DNA from: Candidatus Woesearchaeota archaeon | GTDB lineage: Archaea > Nanobdellota > Nanobdellia > Woesearchaeales > UBA12501 | Assembly (NCBI GenBank): GCA_026394915.1 | Contig: JAPLZS010000211.1 | Coordinates: 1-5,742 of the forward strand | Direction of reading: 5' to 3' | Length of the DNA: 5,742 bases | Shown: positions 552 through 5,742 of the stretch, in pieces | How the letters are laid out: every line of letters begins with the position of its first letter | Position numbering within the stretch: position 1 is the first letter of the stretch | Notes under the pieces: model-generated | Told to the model about the DNA's origin: nothing | What the model saw: the letters and a program-made list of their open reading frames with translations, nothing else | The model's database searches: none | Position numbers and translations under genes: made by a program

Positions 552-2570
552 CTAGAATATCCTTATTTGCGCATCATCAAGCTTTACAAGCCTGTTCCAT
601 TCTGAATCGACATTTGCCTGCAGCTCTGCAATCTCCTCTTTTGTCAAATGTTTGAACCTTCCCTGAGGAGACAGGAATTCCTCTATTGGAGATGCTTTTG
701 AAGGCCTGTTGGTTATTCTCACAACACCATCCTCAATCTCGAACATAGGATACATGTTTGTCTTGAAAGCCAGCTTTGCTATCTCTATCGATAGGTTGCT
801 TGGTATGCCCCAGCCCGGAATGCATGGGACAAATACCTGGATGTATGACACGCTGTCTTTGGTCAGCGCTTTCTTGACTTTAGATATAAGATCATGAGGG
901 AATGCTGCATTCGCTGTAGCAACATAGCAGCCATGGCTGGCCATTATAAAAGGCATGTTCTTCCTGAACTCTGTCTTTCCATGAATCTTCTTTCCGAATG
1001 GAGTTGTTGTTGTCTCTGCATACTTCGGCGTTGCTCCGCTTCTCTGCACGCCAGTATTATGCACAACTATCCCATCAGCAACAAAATTATGCTCTTCTTC
1101 AACTCTTAAATCTAAAGTTGGTTCATCCTTGACAAACTTAATTGAGGTCACTTTCTCTGTGCTGAAATGCTCATTGTCAGCCAAGAAATCCCTTTGCTTT
1201 GTCTGGGAAGGGTATTTTGAGATGTCTGCTATTCTCTTTTTGCTGAAACAGATATATCCATAAGTAGAGTCTTCCAATAAGTTTCTATAGACGCAGAAAG
1301 TTCCTTTTTTCTTAGTTTGTTGATGTATCTTACCGACCTGATACCCTATTGTCTGCAATAATAACCTCAATGTCCTTAACAGATCGTAACTTGCGGAGAC
1401 ATACCTATTGCTATTGCCTATTTTATACCCATCTGATGACATTAACCCTGTTATAAAGGCCTCTTTCTCTGAATCAGTCAATGTAAATACCCAATCAGGA
1501 ATAATCTTATTCTTTGCGCCCCTCCCAAATCCAAGAGAATCAATAAATCTTGATAGATTAATTGAGTATATATAGATATAATTTTTGTCTTTCTGAATCA
1601 AATTTTGTTTGAATGATCTTTTGTATAGATATATCAATCGATTGCTTTCTTTTGTATTTTTAGGGAGCGCAAATCCTGTTTCTGCTTTCTGCGGCCTAAT
1701 CCACCCATCTCCCAGATACAATCCTAAGAACTCCATGAAGTCTTCAGAGCTCTTCTTTGGCAGAGTTAGATTATTTATCTTATTGACTTTATAGTCTCCT
1801 TTCTTTGATATTTTTATTGGCTTAAACTCAAAGCTTTTACCAGGTCTTGTCTTTTTAAGGACGACAACAACATCATTCTCCTTGATATGCCCTAATTCTT
1901 TCCATATAAAACAATGTGGTTTTCCCCTACCATCCCTCTTAAGGACTAAGAAAGGGTGATTTGAAGTCGCCTTTATTGTATGATGAAGAGTATTCAATTC
2001 AAAAACCCCCTTTATTCCATTATCAAATATTCCTGTGCACCTTTTCAATGCAAGATCTCCTGTCTTCTGGTCAAATGCATAAACTTCTTGCCCTAATTGG
2101 ATATCAGTTATTCTTTTCAGCCCATCTTTTGTCATTATAAGTGAATCGAGGCTTAAGCAATTCATGTAAGCTCCATTATCATAACAGACAAATGTGAATT
2201 TATGCCTTCTCTCTGCTGCTCCGCTCAGTGCCTGCAGACCTATATCAAACGTGCCGCCGTCTCCTGCAAATGCAAGAAGATTGATCTTATCTCTCTTGTT
2301 CTGCTGCACAAGAGCCTTGTCAACTCCTGATGCAACGCTTGCAGCTGTCTCAAAAGCAGCGTGGATCCATGGGATCCTCCATGCAGTCTGGGGATAAGGG
2401 GTTGAGAATACCTCTAAACAACCTGTTGCATTGGCAACTATTGTGTTCTTGCCAGATGCCTTCAGCACATGCCTTACTGCAAGTGACTGCGCACATCCTG
2501 CGCATGCGCGATGGCCAGATGCAAAATATTCCTCTGTTGAAAGATTATTTATTTTGTCCTTCATTGTCAA
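552..2570 (-). CDS. porB: Pyruvate (2-oxoacid):ferredoxin oxidoreductase beta subunit, intein-containing precursor
   Basis: TPP-binding catalytic subunit of the CoA-acetylating 2-oxoacid:ferredoxin oxidoreductase (pyruvate + CoA to acetyl-CoA + CO2 + reduced ferredoxin), cytoplasmic. The precursor is 672 residues: N-extein 1-137, intein 138-505, C-extein 506-672. The spliced protein would be 304 residues, normal for archaeal PorB. The N-extein has CxxC (C23, C26) and C51, which with C583 (PCIPGWG) make the usual four [4Fe-4S] ligands. The TPP/Mg motif starts at GDGG (103-106) and ends DNGAYMN (131-137), rejoining to TGVQRSG after splicing. The start is taken as TTG at 2570: GGAGG at 2585-2581 lies 10 bases upstream, versus 16 bases for the in-frame ATG at 2564. 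The TTG overlaps the porA stop by four bases (TTGA), implying translational coupling. It is the last gene of the operon. Pyruvate is the likeliest substrate, but a related 2-oxoacid cannot be excluded from sequence alone. Confidence 0.95.
1056..2159 (-). mobile_element. Intein with LAGLIDADG homing endonuclease inserted in PorB
   Basis: An in-frame 368-residue insertion splits the conserved PorB motif YMN|TG. Intein numbering: block A starts at C1 ([13 protein letters not shown]); block B is TSNH (T65, H68); the two LAGLIDADG helices are LGLYLGDG (145-152, acidic D151) and ITGLMSSDG (236-244, acidic D243); block F is [14 protein letters not shown] (351-364); block G ends VVHN with the penultimate H367 and terminal N368. 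The +1 extein residue is Thr. All residues needed for class 1 splicing are present and both endonuclease acidic residues are kept, so splicing and homing both look intact. Removing it restores an uninterrupted, normal-length PorB. The DNA is markedly more AT-rich than its host gene: bases 1561-1620 hold 12 G/C of 60 and 1801-1860 hold 18 of 60, against 33 of 60 at 2221-2280 in the extein. This fits acquisition by horizontal homing. Activity is inferred from motifs only. Confidence 0.96.
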
Positions 2571-3727
2571 AAAAGCCAGTCCTCCTTTGTGCCTTTTCCA
2601 AAGATCATATCCTTCAATGCCTTCTCAATATGCTGAGGAGTTATGTCCCTTCCTCCAAGGCCGGTTATGAATCCGCTGATCGTTCCTACTTCTGATTTTC
2701 CATCGCATAAAGCCGACCTTGTATCAGAATAGAGCGCACCTTCATATCCTGTTGAGATGTCCCTGTCTATGACTGCGATGCCTTTAAGGCCTTTTGCTGC
2801 TTTTGAAATAGCTTCTGATGGAAAAGGCCTGTAAGTCTTTACCTTTATCATGCCTGCCTTTATGCCTTCTTTTCTCAGATTGTCTATCACAACCCTTGCT
2901 GTGCTGCACAGTGTGCCCATCCCAATCAAAGCATAATCAGCATCATTCATTCTGTATAGTTCAATCAGGCCATCTCCGTATCCTCTCTTGAATTTTCCCC
3001 TGAACTCTGAATTCACTTTCTTTATTATATCTATAGATTCCTTCATTGCATCATGCTGCATCTTCTTGAAATGCATGTATGTGTCAGGATATGAAACAGG
3101 CCCCTGTGTAATCGGTTTTTTTGGATCAAGGAAAGCGTGGATTGGATTGTACTTTGGCAGGAAGCTGTTCACTTTTGACTGCTTCGCAATCTCAACAGGC
3201 TCCCACACATGGCTTAGAGTAAATCCGTCAAGGCAGACCATCACCGGAAGAAGCACATTCTTGTTCTCTGCAATCTTATAAGCCTGTATGATTGTGTCAA
3301 ATGCCTCCTGAGAAGATTCGACATAGAGCTGTATCCAGCCAGAGTCTCTTTCAGAGATAGAATCCTGATGGTCATTCCATATGTTTATCGGAGCAGACAA
3401 TGCCCTGTTTGCGACTGCCATAACAATAGGAAGCCTCATCCCTGATGCGACAAAAAGCATCTCATGCATCAATGCAAGGCCCTGTGAAGCTGTTGCAGTA
3501 AAGGTTCTTACTCCTGTTCCCTGCGCACCTATGCATGCAGACATTGAAGAATGCTCTGATTCGGTGTCAATTATTTCTGCATCAAAATCGCCATTGCTGA
3601 CAAAATCTGCAATATGCTCTACAATATGGGTCTGGGGAGTAATAGGATAAGTAGCTATGACTGAAGGACTGCAGAGCTTGACTGCCTCTGCAACTGCCTG
3701 ACTTGCTTCAATTACTTGTTTTGCCAT
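2567..3727 (-). CDS. porA: Pyruvate (2-oxoacid):ferredoxin oxidoreductase alpha subunit
   Basis: Alpha subunit, 386 residues, full length for archaeal PorA. The N-terminal pyrimidine-binding domain carries YPITPQT (27-33), whose TP pair contacts substrate in pyruvate:ferredoxin oxidoreductases, ESEHS (56-60) with the Glu expected to activate the TPP aminopyrimidine ring, TATASQGL (77-84), NR (107-108) and [15 protein letters not shown] (117-131). The second domain, about 260-350, includes [15 protein letters not shown] and VKTYRPFP and is the transketolase C-terminal-like domain that helps bind CoA in this family. It works with PorB, since each TPP sits at the alpha/beta interface. ATG at 3727 has a GGAG 12 bases upstream (3743-3740). 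It lies 38 bases after porD, and its stop overlaps the porB start. No broken motifs are seen. The sequence fits PorA best; VorA/KorA-type paralogues are the alternative. Confidence 0.95.
2581..2585 (-). promoter_or_regulatory. Ribosome-binding site for porB, supports TTG start
   Basis: AAAGGAGG on the - strand, within the last codons of porA, is the strongest Shine-Dalgarno match in the operon. GGAGG ends 10 bases before TTG (2570-2568) and 16 bases before ATG (2564-2562), favouring initiation at the TTG that overlaps the porA TGA. Confidence 0.6.
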
Positions 3728-3765: not shown

Positions 3766-4068
3766 TTATTTCTCCTCTTTCTTCATAACAATGCATTTAA
3801 CAGGGCATTCCTGTGCACATATCCCGCAGCCCTTGCAATAATCAAGGTCTGCGACAAACTCCTCGCTGATTGCATTGTCAGGGCAGAACATCCAGCAGAA
3901 TCCGCACTTTATGCACTTGCTTGGGTCTCTTACTGGCCTGAACTCCCTCCAGCTGCCTGTCTTGTTAGCCATTGATGAACCTGGCTTTGTTATGATTGCA
4001 CCTACTGTGATCTCAGGATTATTTCCATTGCCTTTCCTTACTTTTTTTGTTTTTTTTTTTCTTGGCAT
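3766..4068 (-). CDS. porD: Pyruvate (2-oxoacid):ferredoxin oxidoreductase delta subunit, 2x[4Fe-4S] ferredoxin-like
   Basis: Electron-transfer subunit that relays electrons from the PorB cluster to soluble ferredoxin. From ATG at 4068 the protein is 100 residues. A lysine-rich tail (MPRKKKTKKVRK) is followed by the PorD hallmark ITVGAII...PGSS...KTGSWR (20-41). Two ferredoxin motifs follow: C52, C55, C58, C62 and C78, C81, C84, C88, each CxxCxxCxxxCP, with an extra C92. The frame stays open to an earlier ATG at 4089 (seven more residues, MRRAVVK). The start at 4068 is preferred because GAGGAG (4087-4082) sits 13 bases upstream, close to the spacing in porA (12) and porB (10), while 4089 has no such site. 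In addition, an out-of-frame PorG C-terminus ends TAA-A-ATG exactly here, so the MRRAVVK codons look like former porG sequence. An 11-A homopolymer encodes part of the basic tail. Confidence 0.93.
   Translation of the reverse strand: MPRKKKTKKVRKGNGNNPEITVGAIITKPGSSMANKTGSWREFRPVRDPSKCIKCGFCWMFCPDNAISEEFVADLDYCKGCGICAQECPVKCIVMKKEEK
4050..4060 (-). repeat. Eleven-base A homopolymer in porD
   Basis: On the - strand, eleven A residues run through the codons AGA AAA AAA AAA ACA near the porD start, and a second run of seven A follows after one C. It encodes the lysine-rich tail before the conserved PorD fold. Such runs are prone to replication, transcription or sequencing slippage; here the written frame is intact. 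Confidence 0.85.
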
Positions 4069-4069
4069 T

Positions 4070-4117
4070 TTAACCACAGCTCTCCTCATAGACTTTCTTT
4101 ATCGCGCTCTTGTTAAC
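4070..4117 (-). pseudogene. Out-of-frame remnant of the PorG C-terminus
   Basis: Read one frame away from porG, codons from GTT at 4117 give VNKSAIKKVYEESCG and a TAA at 4072-4070. This resembles the normal PorG ending, in which a helix of the form KN-x-x-AIKxxYEE closes the protein. The in-frame PorG body stops matching the family at SLKSMQ (codon CAG at 4119-4117), so about 14 residues that normally join the two parts, plus one base of phase, appear to be missing. The TAA is followed by one base and then the preferred porD ATG at 4068, a natural operon junction. The family comparison is from memory of PorG sequences, not an alignment. A sequencing or assembly error would give the same picture. 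Confidence 0.6.
4082..4087 (-). promoter_or_regulatory. Ribosome-binding site for porD
   Basis: GAGGAG on the - strand lies 13 bases before the ATG at 4068. It falls inside the MRRAVVK codons of the longer porD frame, so it can serve only the shorter start. The spacing is long but close to that of GGAG before porA (12 bases) and GGAGG before porB (10 bases to the TTG). Confidence 0.5.
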
Positions 4118-4575
4118 TGCATTGACTTGAGGCTGACTGCTTTTGTTATTGCTGACAATGCTCCAAGAAGAGGCGTGTTCACAATAGGCCTCTTGAAAAT
4201 CTCCATTGCAACAGCTGTTGCATCAACTGTATAGACCTTGAACTTTTTATCGAGATTGAGATCTTTTGGCTTCTTTGACGTGTTGATTATGATTGTTCCG
4301 CCATCTTTAAGGCCTTTTGTGACATCAACTGCATTTATAAGAGTTGGATCAAGCACAATAACAATGTCTGGCGCATAGATCTGAGATCTCAGCCTTATGG
4401 GCTCTTTGTCAATCCTCACAAATGCCTCAACAGGGGCCCCTCTTCTCTCAACTCCGAAATTAGGGAATGTCTGGCAGTTCTTCCTGTCATGCAGAGCAGC
4501 TATTGCTATTATCTGACCAGTTGTCACAGCTCCCTGGCCTCCTCTTCCCCAGATCTTGATTTCTATCATATTCAT
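4099..4575 (-). CDS. porG: Pyruvate (2-oxoacid):ferredoxin oxidoreductase gamma subunit, C-terminus apparently truncated by frameshift
   Basis: Gamma subunit and first gene of the operon, 158 residues where archaeal PorG is usually about 175-185. Family signatures are clear: WGRGGQGAVTTGQ (9-21), FGVERRGAPVEAFVRI (40-55), IYAPDIVIVLDPTLI (66-80), DGGTIIINTS (91-100), VDATAVAMEI (118-127) and PIVNTPLLGAL (130-140). After AVSLKSMQ (146-153) the frame gives only LTRAR and stops. The expected amphipathic C-terminal helices are missing, yet the neighbouring frame immediately after encodes a plausible PorG end (separate entry), which points to a small out-of-frame deletion. The remaining body covers all conserved motifs, so function may survive. 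The start is ATG at 4575 or the in-frame ATG at 4569 (MIEIKIWG, nearer the usual family start). Neither has a clear ribosome-binding site. A TATA-like box lies about 58 bases upstream. Confidence 0.92.
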   Translation of the reverse strand: MNMIEIKIWGRGGQGAVTTGQIIAIAALHDRKNCQTFPNFGVERRGAPVEAFVRIDKEPIRLRSQIYAPDIVIVLDPTLINAVDVTKGLKDGGTIIINTSKKPKDLNLDKKFKVYTVDATAVAMEIFKRPIVNTPLLGALSAITKAVSLKSMQLTRAR

Positions 4576-4730: not shown

Positions 4731-5742
4731 ATGCTAAAAGTCGATTCAGTCAATGTTTACAAGTCAGTCAAGATACTCAGCTTTGAGGATTCTATAAAGA
4801 AGATAAAAGAATTAAAAGCAAAAGGAAAGAAAGTAGGATTGTGCCATGGCGGATTTGACATGCTCCATCCTGGCCATGTAAAGCACTTTGAATCTGCAAA
4901 AAAGCTCTGCGATGTGCTGTTTGTCTCCGTCACCTCTGACAGGTTTGTCGAGTCAAGGAAAGGCTCAGGAAGGCCTGTTTTCCCTGATAGGCTGAGGGCA
5001 TACATGGCAGCAAGCATTGAGTTTGTCGATTATGTTGTTGTAACTGACTTTGCAAAGGCAATGGAGATACTTAAATCCCTCAAGCCGTCATACTACATAA
5101 AAGGCCCTGACTTTATAAAGAAGACAACGCCCGGAATAACCGCAGAAAGAGAAGCAATAAAAGAAGCTGGCGGAGAGATGAGATACACAGATGATCCAAA
5201 GCTCAGCACAACAGAGATAATAGATTACATAAAGAACAAGATGGACACAGAGAACATCCTTGTGATAATAGACAGGGACGGCACCATCATAAGGAATGAT
5301 GATTACCTCGGAAAGAACAAGTACTGGAAAGAGGAGATTGAGTTCAATGAGGATGTTGTCAGCTTCATCATATACCTGCAGACAAAATACAGGACAACAA
5401 AGATTGTGGTGAGCAATCAGTCAGGCATTGCAAGGAAATTCTTTGACTGCAAAAAGGTTGATGAGATAAACAGCCATATAGATGCAGAGCTGTCAAAGAA
5501 AAGCATAAAAATCGATGGATGGCAGTACTGCCCTGATGTTGACTCCAAGTTTGCAGAGAAGCAGAAGTGCAATGGCATATGCTTTGACAACAAGCATGTC
5601 AGGGAAAAGACAAAGAGAAAGCCAGACACTGCGATGGTGCTTGACGCACTCAAGGATCTTAAGAAAGATCTGAACGAGTTCACAAAGATTATTGTAATTG
5701 GCAATGGCAAGGATGATAAGGGCCTTGCAGACAATCTGAAGG
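4731..5742 (+). CDS. Bifunctional HldE/HldC-like nucleotidyltransferase fused to GmhB/HisB-type HAD phosphatase, 3' end outside window
   Basis: 337 codons are present and the frame is open at the right edge. Residues about 16-170 form a cytidylyltransferase-like Rossmann domain of the HldE C-terminal type: HGGFDMLHPGH (39-49, with the nucleotide-binding HxGH at 46-49), VSVTSDRFV, a GRPVF loop, YYIKGPDF (121-128) and LSTTEII (158-164). Residues about 176 onward form a HAD phosphatase of the DxD subfamily that includes GmhB and HisB-N: DRDGT (181-185, nucleophile D181 and acid/base D183), SNQSGIAR (228-235, motif II Ser), RKP (296-298, motif III Lys) and IGNGKDD (323-329, motif IV). In bacteria GmhB removes the 7-phosphate of heptose 1,7-bisphosphate and HldE/HldC then adds a nucleotide to the 1-phosphate, so the fusion joins consecutive steps of nucleotide-sugar synthesis. 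The heptose substrate is inference. The Cys/His zinc loop is altered (C267, C280, C284, CPD instead of CPH). ATG at 4731 is chosen because a TATA box is suitably placed. Confidence 0.88.
   Translation, partial: MLKVDSVNVYKSVKILSFEDSIKKIKELKAKGKKVGLCHGGFDMLHPGHVKHFESAKKLCDVLFVSVTSDRFVESRKGSGRPVFPDRLRAYMAASIEFVDYVVVTDFAKAMEILKSLKPSYYIKGPDFIKKTTPGITAEREAIKEAGGEMRYTDDPKLSTTEIIDYIKNKMDTENILVIIDRDGTIIRNDDYLGKNKYWKEEIEFNEDVVSFIIYLQTKYRTTKIVVSNQSGIARKFFDCKKVDEINSHIDAELSKKSIKIDGWQYCPDVDSKFAEKQKCNGICFDNKHVREKTKRKPDTAMVLDALKDLKKDLNEFTKIIVIGNGKDDKGLADNLK

Follow-up and report, generated by a model that had tools for sequence, protein, structure and literature searches.

A predicted self-splicing intein in a likely archaeal porB gene, with evidence for movement between lineages independently of its host

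The window analysed here, a whole stretch of 5,742 nucleotides from a Candidatus Woesearchaeota archaeon (assembly GCA_026394915.1, contig JAPLZS010000211.1), carries a likely porB gene interrupted in frame by a long insert. Is the insert a functional intein, and has it travelled with its host gene or apart from it? Our reading, to which we give a probability of roughly 0.9, is that a 368-residue, predicted self-splicing intein interrupts the gene, and that this allele has passed from lineage to lineage apart from its host gene, likely by homing. The host is likely a DPANN archaeon.

The intein and its likely porB host gene

The minus-strand frame 552-2564 is open throughout on the ORF reading; its ATG lies at 2562-2564, with an in-frame TTG upstream at 2568-2570. 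The insert is in frame, running from a Cys1 codon at 2157-2159 to an Asn368 codon at 1056-1058, with the junctions DNGAYMN/CLSLDS...ADGIVVHN/TGVQRSG, and it separates Asn135 from Thr136, numbered on the spliced protein (Table 1). A first-pass annotation of this DNA had proposed a 368-residue intein here, with Cys1, block B, two LAGLIDADG motifs and an HN/T end. The coordinates that it gave are exact to the base, and all of the motifs are intact. Its length of 304 residues for spliced PorB holds if translation is counted from the TTG; counted from the ATG, the product has 302 residues.

Class 1 inteins begin with Cys or Ser, end with Asn followed by Cys, Ser or Thr, and contain a TxxH block B and blocks F and G. 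The insert has Cys at position 1, a C-terminal Asn followed by Thr, the TxxH of block B, and blocks F and G. Pfam Intein_splicing matches residues 8-368 with 56.5 bits (cut-off 35.8), and LAGLIDADG_3 matches one stretch, residues 232-288, with 31.7 bits (cut-off 22.5). NCBIfam intein_Cterm exceeds its cut-off, and intein_Nterm is narrowly below (22.5 vs 24.5 bits). PDB matches of the endonuclease region include VMA inteins and I-DmoI. The intein has a G+C content of 35.5%, against 45.6% for the extein. Judged by sequence, the insert belongs with the ordinary class 1 inteins that bear an endonuclease, and both splicing and DNA cutting are predicted for it.

Table 1. Features of the intein, its host gene and the adjoining por genes in the window
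Feature	Coordinates	Strand	Basis
porB with intein	552-2564	-	open frame; NCBIfam best model PorB
C-extein of PorB, 167 codons, begins TGVQRSG (+1 Thr)	555..1055	-	alignment to 9bt4; stop codon 552-554
porB intein, 368 codons, Cys1 to Asn368	1056..2159	-	open frame, splice-junction residues, Pfam, allele conserved
Intein blocks F and G, EPTLDLR...ADGIVVHN (D350, H357, H367, N368)	1056..1124	-	in 164/164 distinct inteins; NCBIfam intein_Cterm
Predicted LAGLIDADG endonuclease region, about intein residues 121-331, boundary approximate	1167..1799	-	absent from mini-inteins; model helices/strands; PDB matches
LAGLIDADG motif 2, GLMSSDGY (D243)	1425..1448	-	D243 in 157/158 distinct inteins with a residue there
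LAGLIDADG motif 1 (D151, in LGDGW)	1701..1730	-	D151 in 155/158 distinct inteins with a residue there
Intein block B, TSNHPFL (T65, N67, H68)	1947..1967	-	residues in 164/164 distinct inteins
N-extein of PorB, 135 codons from ATG, ends DNGAYMN, has GDG...N TPP/Mg motif	2160..2564	-	TPP_enzyme_C; alignments to 9bt4, 1b0p, 7plm
porA	2567..3727	-	NCBIfam PorA_Arch 565.7 bits, cut-off 550
porD (ferredoxin-like subunit)	3766..4089	-	NCBIfam PorD_KorD 99.2 bits, cut-off 60.05
porG/porC (gamma subunit)	4099..4575	-	NCBIfam PorC_KorC 198 bits, cut-off 81.1

The best NCBIfam model of the spliced protein is NF008819 PorB, whose cut-off of 405 bits it misses with a score of 390.5 (369.6 bits for the intein-bearing precursor). 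Its best PDB match is the PFOR beta subunit 9bt4, in an alignment covering residues 11-289, and Pfam TPP_enzyme_C is found over its cut-off in the N-extein. We describe the host gene as likely to be porB of pyruvate:ferredoxin oxidoreductase because the PorB score is under its cut-off while that of the adjoining PorA is over its own. The porD product is just under the cut-off of the more specific PorD_Arch model (115.9 against 120).

The residue before the insert aligns with residue 995 of the 1b0p chain sequence, and the 7plm chain is numbered one higher, so that the -1 Asn corresponds to Asn996 of Desulfovibrio africanus PFOR. Passages of the structural report PMC5020499 describe Asn996 as bordering the pyruvate pocket and rotating when pyruvate binds; they further describe a Gly-Asp-Gly motif that, with an Asn (Asn118b), binds the Mg ion, Asn118b standing five residues before Leu123b, the Asn996 counterpart. 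With the alignment, these passages indicate an insertion that divides the substrate pocket immediately past the cofactor motif, in agreement with the earlier claim of an insertion at a conserved active-site codon directly after the GDG...N motif. As the pocket is split, the unspliced precursor would be inactive, and splicing would have to come first. The intein-bearing gene is the only PorB match (E <= 1e-20) in the window genome, whose assembly is 76% complete, and on sequence grounds it is plausible that acetyl-CoA formation depends on splicing of the intein.

Two further frames lie on the plus strand of the window. The one at 4731-5741, which points away from the por operon and continues past the window edge, is a predicted fusion of a heptose-phosphate-adenylyltransferase-like domain with a HAD phosphatase domain, for which only general domain models score over their cut-offs. 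Positions 1-537 are occupied by the last part of another open frame; its product has hydrophobic stretches and matches no NCBIfam model.

Distribution of the allele and occupancy of the site

A protein search with the intein region returned 517 matches at E <= 1e-3. The best 120 of these are 60-85% identical to it and all represent the PorB allele, with Cys1 at the same aligned place in 119 and HN/T in 120; conservation of the splice residues to this degree, as read from the sequences, is not due to chance. When 84,980 species were scanned, each represented by one genome, 61 related loci were obtained, 57 of them with the PorB allele; the scan required conserved intein peptides, so that 57 is a lower bound, biased to conserved copies. 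The remaining four (L087, L093, L094 and L095) lack this allele. The insertion site is the same in all 51 allele loci with both junctions in frame, and every occupied site that was read continues with TG-x-Q; of the other six allele loci, five run into contig ends and the sixth, L091, is frameshifted. In L091, from a Methanophagales bin, the frameshift affects a mini-intein at about 3001-3530 and leaves the N- and C-exteins in different frames, by either decay or sequencing error.

About ten archaeal groups, as named in record titles, carry the allele: Woesearchaeota, Nanoarchaeota, Heimdallarchaeota, Bathyarchaeia and Aenigmatarchaeota, and the further labels Micrarchaeota, ainarchaeum, Hadesarchaea, Methanophagales and Forterrea. 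Seven bacterial labels do so as well, namely Omnitrophota, Aerophobetes, Cloacimonadota, Parcubacteria/Patescibacteria, Poribacteria, Vermiphilus and Subteraquimicrobium. Nearly all of the sequences come from uncultured genomes (metagenome bins). Inteins at the YMN/TG junction occur in archaea and bacteria alike, a two-domain spread that the first-pass annotation, having identified the intein, had missed, along with its host-independent movement described below.

Ten of the best 120 proteins (P0011, P0024, P0030, P0035, P0039, P0044, P0048, P0065, P0090 and P0107; 443 to 541 residues) begin MN/C, at a Met two residues before the intein, with the N-extein missing. The N-extein is found in frame upstream in 51/51 loci with both junctions in frame, and from the sequences a mis-truncated annotation appears likelier than a split gene. 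Other inteins from the phylum of the window (L009-L022, in frames of 592-1267 aa) match the window intein over most of its length at 30-36% identity.

The occupancy of the site varies among close relatives. In the phylum of the window, 81 of 371 sampled genomes have an extein match and four of the 81, including the window genome, carry the allele; G129, the one same-genus genome among the matches listed (74% identical), is empty, as is the same-family G078. The extein is matched in 32 of 35 Omnitrophota genomes: two genes are full (G371, G399), one contains a mini-intein (G396), and those of G395 and G398, 86-90% identical, are empty, while G389 and G397 are fragments that cannot be scored. 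At least 139 of 148 Heimdallarchaeota genomes match, some possibly through paralogues. Among the matches listed for that phylum, G372, G458, G505, G550 and G470 are full, G514 has a mini-intein, and the gene of G520 extends over two contigs; G517, with a PorB 93-95% identical, is empty. In Aerophobetes (the phylum of G373; 14 of 17 genomes match), match coordinates show seven sites to be empty, two full, three with a mini-intein and two with a partial or partly deleted insert. One of the 14 matches in 117 Cloacimonadota genomes (the phylum of G378) is occupied. The named loci include six mini-inteins, 146-173 residues long, which have kept the splicing blocks and lack the endonuclease.

In the nearest 120 intein-free proteins listed, the flanks are directly joined as Y-x-N/TG-x-Q in all 120, with the +1 Thr always present, and joined flanks were also found in 77 empty loci. 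On the coding strand the site reads GCn-TAt-ATG-AAt/ACn-GGn in 52 occupied genes. The 77 empty genes are nearly as conserved around it, with a weaker ATG, and the window differs from the empty G129 site at four of the central 24 bases.

Full, endonuclease-less and empty alleles are stages of a homing cycle. The three forms of the porB site, as classified from sequence, are those expected of such a cycle. PRP8 inteins and haloarchaeal inteins likewise occupy one site with presence and absence among relatives, according to the portions of PMC1508164 and PMC4071816 that bear on this; their hosts are fungal and haloarchaeal, whereas here the host is likely a pyruvate enzyme, in both archaea and bacteria.

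Conservation, predicted fold and a possible switch

Intein sequences from the protein list and the genome loci gave 178 rows, and 164 distinct inteins after removal of duplicates. T65, N67, H68, D350, H357, H367 and N368 are invariant in all 164. Cys1 is present in 163, and the one sequence without it, P0017, is truncated before this residue. A few inteins lack an endonuclease aspartate, D151 in 3/158 and D243 in 1/158. Among 12 distinct close pairs, the same-gene duplicates L210/L211 and L043/L045 being treated as such, dN/dS is 0.03-0.10 in the endonuclease region of 11 (the twelfth is saturated) and 0.05-0.13 in the splicing domain of ten (the other two are saturated); many dS values exceed 1, which makes the ratios rough. 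The ratios nonetheless show constraint, not decay.

An AlphaFold2 model of the window intein has a mean pLDDT of 91.6, and its predicted Hint fold matches solved inteins. In the PDB, the closest folds are those of TliVMA and PhoVMA, endonuclease-associated inteins of Thermococcales (7qss/7qsu and 7qst; E 4e-23 to 6e-19), followed by PI-PkoII and PI-SceI. Like the window intein, TliVMA and PhoVMA combine a splicing and a LAGLIDADG domain in one chain, and the model aligns with them at TM-scores of about 0.66-0.74 by query length; they differ in sequence (about 20% identity) and in host, V-ATPase as opposed to PorB. PI-PkoII and PI-SceI, inteins that act as homing endonucleases in a polymerase and in yeast VMA respectively, share the two-domain plan, the sequence match to PI-PkoII covering intein residues 120-293, but both are only 14% identical to the window intein in the fold alignments. 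For the splicing domain, the best PDB sequence matches of the family profile are DnaB-type inteins (NpuDnaB 4o1r and Ssp DnaB 1mi8), and the best NCBIfam model of the window intein alone is a replicative helicase with intein. The DnaB-type inteins lie in another host gene and at another site, and have Val where the PorB inteins have an invariant Cys41.

This cysteine (window 2037-2039) is found in 164/164 distinct inteins, mini-inteins included, and is aligned with Val in 4o1r, 1mi8 and the DnaX intein 7cfv. A redox role for Cys41 is possible on sequence grounds, and the intein might be kept as a conditional switch, for example one that completes an oxygen-sensitive enzyme when conditions are reduced. 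We regard this as unlikely, since the patchy presence of the intein and its many empty relatives argue against a needed regulator, and Cys41 may be structural. Regulation through the extein Cys at -9 was also considered and rejected: this residue is equally common in empty (110/117) and occupied genes (55/58, duplicates included), and so points to no switch. Equally doubtful is the wider proposal that porB is a hub of live intein exchange between archaea and bacteria in anoxic habitats, with oxidation of Cys41 blocking splicing in some hosts.

Movement of the intein relative to its host, and its novelty

To compare the intein with its host gene, we used 51 rows, consisting of 50 loci and the window; 11 of the 61 loci were dropped as having other hosts or as truncated, partial or frameshifted. 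Over the 990 pairs with more than 300 aligned intein residues, mean identity is 61% for the intein and 49% for the extein, and the intein is the more similar in 95% of pairs; finding loci through intein peptides biases this comparison, and a few pre-start residues slightly lower the extein value. Trees of the two parts (43 rows) have 10 of 40 splits in common, and with either data set the AU test rejects the tree of the other part (p 7e-8 and 2e-5).

Could an old PorB intein have descended from a common ancestor, with many losses and no movement of its own? The ten common splits, which are shallow and include five Heimdallarchaeota rows, agree with such a history, as does the predominance of empty PorB genes across the sampled phyla, which repeated loss would produce. 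The reciprocal rejection of the trees speaks against it, as do individual pairs. The exteins of G372 and G505 are 96% identical (dS 0.45) with intein parts at only 71-73%, whereas those of G372 and G458 are 82% identical (dS 1.7) with intein parts at 89-92% and a lower dS (0.6-0.9). Between an archaeal gene, that of the window, and one from a Cloacimonadota bin (L035), the intein is 78% identical and the extein 43%. Purely vertical inheritance is thus very unlikely.

Whole porB genes or por operons might instead have been transferred, with the intein as a passenger that never moves alone. The porB history is indeed tangled, and in L035 the occupied porB shares a contig with porA and porD. The inteins are nevertheless discordant with their own PorB proteins, and the L035 PorB is at home in its phylum, being 91-93% identical to an empty gene of another Cloacimonadota genome, which makes this explanation hardly credible. 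The same identity casts doubt on L035 as a misbinned 3.6 kb contig and, at the level of sequence, supports its Cloacimonadota label. We give as little credence to a dead insert in the window, with PorB inactive or a pseudogene: although splicing is predicted only, ten proteins start just before the intein and the L091 locus is frameshifted, the window precursor frame is open, its operon is intact, the seven splicing residues are invariant and the dN/dS of 0.05-0.13 is that of purifying selection.

Movement of the allele independently of its host is therefore the reading that we prefer. In an intein tree of 44 rows (27 with archaeal and 17 with bacterial labels), five changes of label are needed, of which the starred branches force only one; judging from the sequences, the cross-domain step appears to rest mainly on L035 and the clash between the trees. 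When presence and absence of the intein were placed on an extein tree (FastTree, 175 rows, 168 different, long branches flagged), 18 changes were required, 10 of them forced by starred branches. The window extein nests with 13 empty rows, including its nearest, P0121 (86%). The window intein has therefore likely been gained late or been lost by relatives, two histories that this sequence tree does not separate.

The proposed pathway would begin with an acyl shift at Cys1, followed by formation of a branch on Thr+1 and cyclisation of Asn368, joining the exteins as YMN-TGVQ. On empty alleles, the endonuclease would recognise the conserved stretch around the site and cut it at the codon pair AAY/ACN, and repair would copy the intein in. 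Decay would then remove either the endonuclease, yielding mini-inteins, or the whole insert. A selfish element with a low host cost once spliced is the simplest reading. A viral carrier was considered and rejected. None of the 55 loci from IMG/VR viral scans contained the HN/TG-x-Q junction of PorB or the GDGG..DIG motif; long matches in them do not exceed about 33% identity, and 41-65% is reached only over short stretches of 402 bases or fewer, and a viral fold search gave the generic fold only.

Inteins are best known from DNA-processing genes, and the unusual features of the present one are its host gene and its reach across two domains. The first-pass annotation had suggested that the insertion site might be undescribed, and this suggestion stands after searches of open-access full texts, in which none of the papers listed describes a PorB intein; InBase and most subscription papers lie outside this scope. 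In the parts of PMC12713403, PMC3655853, PMC2718504 and PMC3087415 that combine 'intein' with PFOR or pyruvate synthase, the terms are unrelated. Neither 'pyruvate' nor 'ferredoxin' was found by word search in two intein reviews (PMC5874633, PMC7765530), and the inteins named in passages of PMC4853749 are in dnaB, dnaE and two ribonucleotide reductases only. Both the PorB host and the insertion site are thus likely to be new.

The likely host enzyme of the PorB allele belongs to the central carbon metabolism of anaerobes. With one allele at one codon in both domains, and with closely related genes that are full, decayed or empty, it offers a natural system for studying how inteins cross the line between archaea and bacteria, and whether DPANN archaea exchange DNA with surrounding bacteria. 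There is also a consequence for annotation, as at least 57 genome loci carry the allele and some NCBI entries start right at the insert.

Another intein of the window genome interrupts DNA gyrase subunit B after GDSAGG; its two ends lie on two contigs (C82 139-2073; C124 1-816). GyrB inteins are known in archaea: 61 intein-containing archaeal GyrB sequences were removed from the analysis described in a passage of PMC9348778.
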